Part shown: piece after piece, positions 28,205-32,047 of the stretch | Numbering within the stretch: position 1 is the first letter of the stretch | Layout: each line of letters begins with the position of its first letter | From: an uncultured Lachnospiraceae bacterium | Lineage (GTDB): Bacteria > Bacillota > Clostridia > Lachnospirales > Lachnospiraceae | Reading direction: 5' to 3' | Assembly (NCBI GenBank): GCA_949949005.1 | Contig: CATLHM010000004.1 | Span: 62,001 to 126,000 of the forward strand | DNA: 64,000 bases | The notes under the pieces: model-generated | The model's input: only the letters and a program-made list of their open reading frames with translations | What the model was told of the DNA's origin: nothing | The model's database searches: none | Translations under genes and position numbers: made by a program

Positions 28205-29191
28205 TTGCCGGTGGGCAGGGAGATTACAATGGGTAATTTTTTCAGGATGATCAATATAAGATGGAGCAGGGAGGAGATTGCCGGCTGGGGTTCCCTGCGC
28301 AAAACGGCATATCTGCTTTTGCCGCTTTTGTTTTATTTCCTGGTTCATGATGGGGCGGAAATCCTTTTATGGGCCGGACTTGACGGGATTATGACCTCCG
28401 GCAACAAGTCTTTGACCTCTTTTCTGACGGACAATGCCTATACGGTAAACGGCCTGATCAATGGATTTGCCATTTTAGCAGGCGTGGCGGCTATCTGGCG
28501 GGCCATCCGGGGGGAAATCAGAGGAAGAGGGGAAGAGGAGACCTGTTCCTTAAAACAAGGAAGTGTCGTATCCGGAAAGGAAGGAAGCGCTGTATCCGGG
28601 GATGAAGGGTACAAAGAGACAGAAACCGGGGTCAACCCTGCAAGGAGCGGCATGGAGTCGGTGGTGACCCGCTATATGGTTCTAGGGGCGCTGGCCTTTT
28701 TGACAGCGTTATCCCTTAACCTTCTCTTTTCGCTGCTAGGCCTGACTGGAAGCTCTCAGGGATATGCGCAGACGGCCAGGGCCCAATATGGGGTAAATTT
28801 TGTGGTAGGGCTTTTTTTGTATGGAATCCTGTCGCCTGCGGCGGAGGAAGCCGTATTCCGGGGACTGATTTATAACAGGATGAAACGGTGCTTTGGATAT
28901 GTCATTGCCCTGGTGGTCTCCTCCCTGTTTTTTGGCTGTTACCACGGAAATGTGGTACAGGCCCTTTACGGGACGGTTCTGGGGCTTTTGATCGCCTGGG
29001 CCTACGAAAAATACGGCAGCTTTGCAGCGCCTGTGCTTTTTCACGGCGTGGCGAATGTGAGTATTTATGCCATGACCTACTATAATAGTCTGGGGGCTAT
29101 GAGCAGGGAGGTAAGTATTGGCGTCATAGTGGTTTCTTTGCTGGGGGCGGGGGTGTGTCTGGGGTATATTAAACGCTGCCACAGGATTTGA
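28205..29191 (+). CDS. CPBP family intramembrane metalloprotease
   Basis: SPAAEEAVFRGLIYNRM, FGCYHGN, multiple TM segments. Confidence 0.88.
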   Translation: MPVGREITMGNFFRMINIRWSREEIAGWGSLRKTAYLLLPLLFYFLVHDGAEILLWAGLDGIMTSGNKSLTSFLTDNAYTVNGLINGFAILAGVAAIWRAIRGEIRGRGEEETCSLKQGSVVSGKEGSAVSGDEGYKETETGVNPARSGMESVVTRYMVLGALAFLTALSLNLLFSLLGLTGSSQGYAQTARAQYGVNFVVGLFLYGILSPAAEEAVFRGLIYNRMKRCFGYVIALVVSSLFFGCYHGNVVQALYGTVLGLLIAWAYEKYGSFAAPVLFHGVANVSIYAMTYYNSLGAMSREVSIGVIVVSLLGAGVCLGYIKRCHRI

Positions 29192-29341
29192 GTGTGGCAA
29201 CTTCGTTTCTTAGCTTTTCAAATTCGTCTGTAAGAGAAGGTGTCTGGATTTCTTAAGCGAGATGTTTGTAGATGTTCGGAATTGCCTGATGGAAGGGTTT
29301 ACATATTTCAAATGTGTAAAAATGTATAAGGTGGGGTATAA

Positions 29342-31699
29342 ATGAGTACTACAATTAAAATTGTCTCAGCAGTATTAAAGGCGGTGGTAGGAGATAAGGT
29401 TGGGAGTGGATTAGTTCAGGATTTGATTGGAATTTCAATAGATGAGGCATCTGAAAAAAGCATAAATGAGATTGCGGACTTTATTGATAAAGAAAAATTT
29501 AAGATTGGCCGGATTCTTTCTGAAGAAAATTTGAAGTCTATGGGGATTTCAGAAAATAAAATTGATTATGTGATAGTTGAGATAAAGGATTTATTTTTTA
29601 AGGTTAGCATCACGGATGAAGTGCTTGAACAATGCAGATATGATAGCATGAATTTGAGTGCCTTTTTGTGGAATAAATATAGAGAATATAGAAATGATTA
29701 TATAGAATGTGAAAGCGAGATTAAACAATGCTTATTTGTTATTGCGGAAACAATAATTAAGTTAGTGCGAGAGAGTGAAGAATTTGAAAAGGATGTTTTG
29801 GTACAGATCAGTAATTCTGTTGATGACACTAATGCAGAATTACAGAATATATCTGGTTATTTGAAAGAGAATTTCAGTAAGCTGGATGATAACAGCCAAA
29901 TGGTACTGAATATTCTACTGAAGATTTTAGAGCAGATCCAGAAAATGAGTGTGAAGGATAATAAATTAAAAAACAGGGATTGTGAGAAGGAAAAGTTCCA
30001 AAATAATAAAAAGCAACAATATATTGATATTTGGAATGGTAGATTATTCCTTCATGCGGATACGGATGAAAACCCGTTAACTTTAGCAGATGCATTTATT
30101 ATGCCTGATTATGAGATACATAAGGCTATTCAGAAAATGCGCTATTCATATTCTGGTACACTGGACGGAATTATTAAAGAATTTGCAGAATATGAGAGAA
30201 CATCTACAATGCTTATTACAGGCGCCCCAGGTATAGGAAAATCAACTATTACTTCGTGGATGGCAAATAAGTATAAGGACGATGATCGGTTTATTATATT
30301 ACGGTTTCGTGATTGGGATAGCGAAGAATTGGAACAGGGATTGCAAAAGGCTATCTGTAATGAGTTGGAATGTGAAAACAAAGACTTGAATGATAAGATC
30401 TTGATTTTGGATGGATTCGATGAGATGAAATCGTTAGATATTCGCAATAGATTGCTCCATGTGTTTTTTAACGATATAAAGGATAGAAAAAATTTTAAGT
30501 GCATTATAACGTCAAGGCCAGCTTATATAGATTCGTCACACTTTCAAAATGTTATTGAACTTAAGGAATTTAATATAAATAAAGTAGATGCTTTCTACAG
30601 AAGTATGAAAGGGAGAGGGTTGACTGGAAGAGAAAAAATGGAGTTAAACTTGGAGGTGCTGGGGATTCCGGTAATATTATATATGGCTATTATGTCAGGC
30701 ATAGATATTAATGAAAACCACACTAAACCGGAGTTATATAACAAAATTTTTGCAGAGGAAGGAGGTATATTTGATAAGTTTTATGATGGCAAAAATGAAT
30801 ATAGTGAAGGTTCACAGATTATGAGGGATTCTGATAATATAGAAAAGTATTTAAAATTTTTGTGTGAGATTGCATACAAAATGTTTGCAGATAATAAGCA
30901 GAATTTAAAAACGGAAGCTTGTAAAGTTCCGGAATTAGTGTTCCAAAAAGATACGGTAAGTATTTTAGAATTTCCGATTAAGCATTTATTTGAGAATACA
31001 GAAACAAATATTGAATTTATTCATAAATCTATATATGAGTATTTTGTTTCTGAATTCATTTATATACATATCATTAAGAGAATAGGGCAATGCGGGGATA
31101 GAAATTATTTAGCCGGAGAAATTGCTGGCTTGCTAAACTGCAATCATTTATCAGAAGAAATCTGTGAGTTTTTAAAGTACAAGGTTAGTCAAAAAGCAAA
31201 TGTAAATTCATTTAACGGTGTTTTTGATACATTTAATTTAATGATACGTGATGGCATGACGTATCATATGGCCGATCGTTGTAAAAATATAATAAAGTGC
31301 GAAATGAATGTATTCGCTAATATGCTCGAAATTATACATCTGTGGAATAATGGGAATTTTGTGTTCGATAGTAAAATTTTCGATTACTTGAAATATAATT
31401 ATGGATATGAACTTAATTTGTCCGGAATTGATTTGGCAGGCAAAAACTTATCAAAGTTACTGCTAACTAATGTGAATTTAAGCAATGCAAGGTTGGATTC
31501 TGCAAATTTGGGAGGTATGGATTTAAGAAGTACAAAGTTTATAGGAGCAAGCATAGGTAACATTAATTTGGATGAGGCGATTTTAGACGGGGCGATATTC
31601 TCGGAGAGTCAAGTTACGTATTTGGATAAGAAATATAATCTATCTGGTATTAAAGTATATTGTAGTACAAATAATAAGGTATTAAATTATGAGTATTAA
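29342..31699 (+). CDS. NACHT/STAND NTPase with helical N-terminus and C-terminal pentapeptide repeats
   Basis: Walker A LITGAPGIGKSTITSWMA, Walker B DKILILDGFDEM, TSRPAY sensor; C-terminus LNLSGIDLAGKNLSKLLLTNVNLSNARLDSANLGGMDLRSTKFIGASIGNINLDEAILDGAIF. Confidence 0.88.
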   Translation: MSTTIKIVSAVLKAVVGDKVGSGLVQDLIGISIDEASEKSINEIADFIDKEKFKIGRILSEENLKSMGISENKIDYVIVEIKDLFFKVSITDEVLEQCRYDSMNLSAFLWNKYREYRNDYIECESEIKQCLFVIAETIIKLVRESEEFEKDVLVQISNSVDDTNAELQNISGYLKENFSKLDDNSQMVLNILLKILEQIQKMSVKDNKLKNRDCEKEKFQNNKKQQYIDIWNGRLFLHADTDENPLTLADAFIMPDYEIHKAIQKMRYSYSGTLDGIIKEFAEYERTSTMLITGAPGIGKSTITSWMANKYKDDDRFIILRFRDWDSEELEQGLQKAICNELECENKDLNDKILILDGFDEMKSLDIRNRLLHVFFNDIKDRKNFKCIITSRPAYIDSSHFQNVIELKEFNINKVDAFYRSMKGRGLTGREKMELNLEVLGIPVILYMAIMSGIDINENHTKPELYNKIFAEEGGIFDKFYDGKNEYSEGSQIMRDSDNIEKYLKFLCEIAYKMFADNKQNLKTEACKVPELVFQKDTVSILEFPIKHLFENTETNIEFIHKSIYEYFVSEFIYIHIIKRIGQCGDRNYLAGEIAGLLNCNHLSEEICEFLKYKVSQKANVNSFNGVFDTFNLMIRDGMTYHMADRCKNIIKCEMNVFANMLEIIHLWNNGNFVFDSKIFDYLKYNYGYELNLSGIDLAGKNLSKLLLTNVNLSNARLDSANLGGMDLRSTKFIGASIGNINLDEAILDGAIFSESQVTYLDKKYNLSGIKVYCSTNNKVLNYEY

Positions 31700-31829
31700 A
31701 AATGATACAGCATTTGCACAGATTTGAAAGGACATTTTATAGGCAGAGAAAAAGCAGATATCAATCATAGTTTATAAATATTTCCTAATGGGAGATTGTA
31801 TTTCGCGGCTCCCCCGTTACCACAAAGAA

Positions 31830-31902
31830 TGGAGCATACGGGACTTGAACCCGTGACCTCCACACTGCCAGTGTGGCGCGCTCCCAACTGCGCTAATGCC
31901 CC
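31830..31902 (-). tRNA. tRNA-Ala(GGC)
   Basis: GGGGCAT...CCACACTGGCAGTGTGG...ATGCTCCA; anticodon GGC, G3:U70 pair, GTTCAAGTC T-loop. Confidence 0.96.
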
Positions 31903-32047
31903 ATAAGAAAAGTATAACACAAATTTCGTAAAAAACAACAAAAAAATAATTGACAGAAATTTAGCACCAAAAACAACAAAAAGACTCATAATAACAGAAT
32001 AGATATATAATTAACAAATAATCAGACAATTTACCAAATATTCGTTA

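Follow-up and report, generated by a model that had tools for sequence, protein, structure and literature searches.

We have asked what is encoded by a solitary gene within a stretch of 64,000 nucleotides from an uncultured Lachnospiraceae bacterium (hereafter the window), and whether its product might protect the cell against phage. The gene runs from an ATG at position 29342 to position 31699 on the + strand, and encodes a protein of 785 amino acids. An earlier note on this DNA had taken the product to be an NLR-like STAND protein, and its tripartite layout bears this out. A Pfam scan of the 785-amino-acid protein gave scores above the curated cut-offs both for NACHT (PF05729; 31.3 bits compared with 26.7, residues 289-422) and for Pentapeptide (PF00805; 35.6 bits compared with 20.2, E = 6.4e-9), so that neither is a chance match. 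Both domains were matched in all nine of the homologues aligned.

The NACHT NTPase occupies residues 286-422 (30197..30607, +). It contains exact matches to the three motifs given in the earlier note, all on the + strand: Walker A, GAPGIGKST, at residues 294-302 (30221..30247); Walker B, LILDGFDEM, at residues 354-362 (30401..30427); and SRPAY at residues 391-395 (30512..30526). The motifs are intact, and in the alignment of nine homologues G294, P296, G297, G299 and K300 of Walker A, D357, G358, D360 and E361 of Walker B, and R392 of SRPAY are invariant. From its position, R392 may be a sensor-1-like residue. The NTPase core is followed, where a STAND protein would carry its winged-helix and helical region, by a middle region (residues 423-690; 30608..31411, +) that is predicted to be helical, at low confidence in the AF2 model, and which carries the conserved blocks GIPVILY and FIHKSIYEYF. 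There follow 13 in-frame tandem repeats of the type A(D/N)LXX (residues 691-755; 31412..31606, +), defined by the Pfam match, the repeat count and a predicted β-solenoid, and a non-repeat tail delimited in the AF2 model (residues 756-785; 31607..31696, +). The C-terminal pentapeptide solenoid that had been proposed is therefore present, but it is only ~65 amino acids in length; residues 640-690, which the earlier note had counted in, are predicted to be helical, and 756-785 lie beyond the repeats.

The N-terminal domain, which we term type A (residues 1-215; 29342..29986, +), is predicted to be all helical. It matched no family in Pfam, NCBIfam or PADLOC, and sequences in the PDB only at noise E-values, in agreement with the ~200 helical amino acids with no recognized effector noted previously. 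For the protein as a whole, scans of Pfam and NCBIfam revealed no known effector family and no peptidase family such as a caspase-like domain. Nor was a SNaCT or NCH1 C-terminal domain reported from these libraries, which may not model both. PADLOC returned no specific model, with only weak matches to mad8 and the DpdH NTPase.

A full-length AF2 model calculated with four sequences had a mean pLDDT of 53; the solenoid was predicted at ~75-85, and most of the remainder poorly. The N-terminal domain modeled alone remained all helical, with a mean pLDDT of 48.6 and no fold that could be named. The structure prediction that the earlier note had proposed thus substantiated the solenoid but gave no fold for the N terminus. 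We also considered a membrane-pore N terminus of the HeLo/MLKL kind; this is not supported, since in neither hydrophobicity nor amphipathicity does the N-terminal helix clearly exceed the other helices of the domain. The best Foldseek matches in the PDB were to pentapeptide proteins and NOD2 (E = 1.5e-4), followed by Avs4 (8dgf) and NLRC4; TM-scores were low because the packing of the domains is not settled in this low-confidence model, and we treat the matches as supporting evidence only.

The gene is foreign to its surroundings. Its GC content is 31.8%, compared with 47.8% for the window, in which no other gene-length stretch falls below 40.6%. A homologue (L011) similarly has a GC fraction of 0.29 within flanks of 0.52-0.54, i.e., the gene is AT-rich irrespective of its host. 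From blastn to L032/L033 and the GC profile, the AT-rich insert extends over 29173..31823. DNA of two sister species (G331 and G332) aligns by blastn as far as 29167-29172, near the end of a CPBP gene, and the alignment restarts at 31824-31828, at a tRNA-Ala(GGC) gene (31829..31903, -) whose 3′ end forms the right-hand boundary of the insert. The earlier description of an AT-rich single gene near a tRNA is thus accurate. Another homologue, in G022, likewise ends close to the 3′ end of a tRNA gene, in that case tRNA-Trp. No integrase gene lies between the genes flanking the insert, and a search for direct att repeats around it gave only 8-bp matches, at chance level; the tRNA edge suggests that integration may have been site-specific. 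A promoter and terminator scan gave no more sites than shuffled sequence.

What occupies this site in other species? In the sister species the same gap contains a DUF2500-like ORF and an NYN-domain ORF (G331) or a coiled-coil-like ORF (G332), and in G327 a sugar-ABC transporter with a two-component cluster. In five further genomes (G263, G316, G318, G325 and G329) CPBP and gltB nearly adjoin. The gap is a general insertion hotspot and is not specific to defense, because other species carry varied cargo there, or nothing. It is used in this way across the genus (window 29192-31828; L032, L033, L070), with the NACHT gene, the NYN nuclease-like ORF, the coiled-coil ORF or the sugar transporter operon as cargo where there is any. 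The tRNA-Ala is present at the gap in some species only.

The gene is rare. With the genome of the window itself included, 5 of the 38 genomes of the genus have a homologue, as do 6 of the 298 of the family. A sample of 397 further genomes of the phylum gave no strong match, in a search with a long model in which two candidates were scored per genome and distant members may be missed. There were zero relatives in the PLSDB plasmids or the INPHARED phage collection. Relatives in IMG/VR were recovered by profile only, a single-sequence scan giving none. Two homologues lie on phage contigs, one (L062/G826) with genes for terminase, portal, major head protein and an Mrr nuclease, and the other (L061/G825) with RecJ, primase, DnaB and Sak4 genes and a PemK toxin. 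A further homologue, L009, comes from a 1.4-Mb genome labeled uncultured Tenericutes; provided that this label is correct, the copy would point to transfer over a long range.

The other neighborhoods are mixed. G263 and G298 have in common a mobile-looking upstream segment with an HNH/AP2 protein and a replication-like gene, and AbiEi-type genes lie upstream of homologue L007. In G007 two STAND-pentapeptide genes adjoin (L018:8689-12333 and L018:12550-16653), both ending in DUF6273. The copy in Eubacterium plexicaudatum (L012:9932-12654) is split by transposase-like genes, and that of G298 is interrupted just past Walker A, where two contigs end, a break that an inserted repeat would produce; both would fit a dispensable gene that is repeatedly inactivated. 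Yet most copies, though found variously in housekeeping neighborhoods, mobile elements or phages, are lone genes, and dense defense islands are only partly evident. The copy in the window and those in L011, L015 and L016 are solitary, set among chromosomal housekeeping genes and without phage genes. Association with defense or mobile genes is seen in the phage contigs and in the AbiEi, STAND-pentapeptide and HNH/transposase neighbors. The earlier note would have dropped its proposal had the homologues been uniformly core genes outside defense islands; the gene is instead accessory and mobile.

Some smaller features of these loci may be recorded. HNH/AP2 homing-endonuclease-like genes lie shortly 5′ of several homologues (L010:1559-2470, L014:6170-7179 and L013:6693-7979), and by eye those of L010 and L014 are clearly related. 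The G263 contig has a second pentapeptide gene upstream that has lost its N terminus at the contig edge; by eye, its start resembles the C-terminal half of a STAND protein. The G007 pair looks like a receptor gene that was duplicated locally, each copy ending in a globular domain.

The size of the array varies among the homologues, from the 13 repeats of the window protein to several times as many in L007, and its variability is clearest in the comparison of L009 with L061. Their DNA is identical over the ~340 bp of 5′ flank that is all L061 has, and over the first 400 bp of the gene; thereafter the core is 63%-97% identical per 100 bp, and the arrays are unrelated in length and sequence (proteins of 773 amino acids to the contig end and 957 amino acids). 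The L009 array (L009:12086-12295) comprises 14 copies of a 15-bp repeat with 88% match, and that of L061 is a more degenerate 15-bp array with 67% match; in the array of the window no DNA tandem repeat is detectable. The pattern fits an array that may be renewed or exchanged by recombination or slippage while the N terminus is kept, as seen in one pair consisting of a metagenome-assembled genome and a viral contig, in either of which an assembly artifact is possible. The L009 contig ends inside its array, which may be a sign of length instability.

The homologues have N termini of several types, the NACHT core and the helical middle being the constant part. The type-A domain is portable, because it is also present on a protein of ~986 amino acids with TPRs and no NACHT match, found in G302 and G329. 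It might serve as an adaptor, an oligomerization module or an effector across these two receptor-like types.

Known bacterial NLR-like defense proteins sense via TPR, WD40, helical or small C-terminal domains. Among these, the bNACHT antiphage proteins are similarly single-gene systems with a central NACHT domain. bNACHT25 and 32 belong to clade 6, and bNACHT02 and 12 to clade 14 (PMC12169576, describing Kibby et al., 2023); the members of clade 14 also have no discernible effector. The window protein, compared with clades 6 and 14 by description rather than by placement in a tree, differs in having no detected SNaCT, NCH1 or nuclease, and in its pentapeptide C terminus and N terminus of no known family. 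It shares with Avs/AVAST (Avs1-5) a STAND NTPase switch and a C-terminal repeat region, and Avs4 (8dgf) is among its fold matches, but it has no PADLOC Avs match and no N-terminal nuclease, Sir2 or protease, is about half the size of an Avs protein, and has pentapeptides in place of the TPR-like sensor. The animal NLRs NOD2 and NLRC4 provide the best NTPase fold matches, and have the order of NACHT switch, helical region and C-terminal repeat solenoid that is predicted here; in contrast to these, the solenoid here is a pentapeptide β-helix rather than LRR, and no CARD was detected. The stand-alone pentapeptide proteins MfpA, Qnr, NP275 and alr1298 have the same repeat and predicted solenoid, whereas the array of the window is short and fused to an NTPase.

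The combination is less unusual than the earlier note supposed. Cyanobacterial metacaspase-NACHT-pentapeptide-WD40 proteins have been published (PMC3501461), in which NACHT is likewise followed by pentapeptide repeats in one polypeptide; the window protein differs in lacking the caspase-like domain and WD40, in its N terminus and in its phylum. Pentapeptide repeats are also established as accessory parts of bacterial conflict systems (PMC7159879, PMC8195603). In the literature searched, which did not extend to the main bNACHT survey (Kibby et al., 2023), we found no phage-borne family of effector-less NACHT-pentapeptide proteins of this kind. The fusion itself is already known; what adds interest is that arrays seem to be exchanged and that the N-terminal domain is shared.

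We consider that the gene probably encodes a single-gene NLR-like STAND NTPase that is accessory, horizontally moved cargo, most likely directed against phage or other mobile elements. By analogy with the established biology of bNACHT, Avs and NLR proteins, from which we infer ligand sensing, oligomerization and a defense outcome, the resting state would be an ADP-bound monomer. The helical middle and the pentapeptide solenoid would bind a molecule derived from or altered by the invader, and nucleotide exchange in the NACHT domain would drive oligomerization. This would cluster the N-terminal helical domains, which might recruit a partner carrying the same domain (as an adaptor) or act themselves, so that the infected cell stops growing or dies. 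Against a role in defense we count the lack of a specific PADLOC model, the predominance of lone genes, the location at a general hotspot, the lack of a recognizable effector at the N terminus and the mean pLDDT of 53 of the model behind the structural matches. The same mechanism could operate for the benefit of the carrier element, as a superinfection exclusion or stabilization gene that keeps rival phages out or punishes loss, rather than for the host chromosome. The copies on two phage contigs and the mobile-looking G263/G298 contig with its replication-like and HNH/AP2 genes would agree with this, but the four copies that stand alone in chromosomes show that the gene persists without such an element, and we think this reading quite unlikely. 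Least probable, in our judgment, is a NACHT protein that regulates some host stress or death pathway with no link to phage, and whose array docks onto a partner in the host, for example a topoisomerase. The array does resemble MfpA, Qnr and NP275, and pentapeptide proteins known to bind gyrase act through protein binding (PMC7897471); however, hypervariable arrays beside near-identical N termini are not what would be expected of a surface for a constant host partner, and the gene is rare and mobile.

Within the defense reading itself, the part played by the array is less certain. The earlier note had made the repeats the ligand sensor, and a variable array is consistent with this. DUF6273 follows the arrays of the G007 paralogues, where the repeats may be a scaffold, and the array of the window is short; because of these two features, we place direct ligand binding by the array at slightly less than an even chance. 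It is quite possible, though less likely than not, that the array serves as a rigid spacer or as a scaffold for oligomers, recognition being left to the helical middle (423-690) or to a terminal domain of the DUF6273 kind. Surveys of conflict systems place pentapeptide repeats among scaffolding repeats (PMC7159879), as would suit the 13 repeats here and the adjoining G007 genes; in most members, however, the array is both the last structured part and the most variable segment. Such a role is compatible with defense, and its probability overlaps that given to defense above.

A more specific proposal combines the variability of the array with the portability of the N terminus: an NLR-like receptor with a slippage-prone solenoid as its recognition surface, and an N-terminal helical domain that is a new signaling or adaptor domain common to the TPR protein. 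We offer this tentatively, as rather unlikely to hold in full. The 15-bp DNA repeats would let arrays lengthen, shrink or be exchanged, the N-terminal signaling part remaining constant, and this would give rapid receptor diversification without a diversity-generating retroelement. If true, a partly phage-borne group with β-solenoid tails and DNA repeats prone to change in copy number would provide a simple, testable route to receptor diversification, and would bring to light an unclassified N-terminal domain that two different receptor-like architectures have in common.

The TPR genes with the type-A domain are found at L057:7314-10271 (-) and L056:7894-10854 (+). In their products the domain is followed by an unannotated stretch of ~180 amino acids and then by kinesin-light-chain-like TPRs; the stretch begins IYLAAS, and by eye is a candidate TIR/DUF4062-like domain. 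Related genes lie downstream of the TPR protein in both G302 and G329. The one scanned, in L056, matched a MATCAP-like metallopeptidase, and its counterpart in L057 looks related, so the pair may be a candidate two-gene system.
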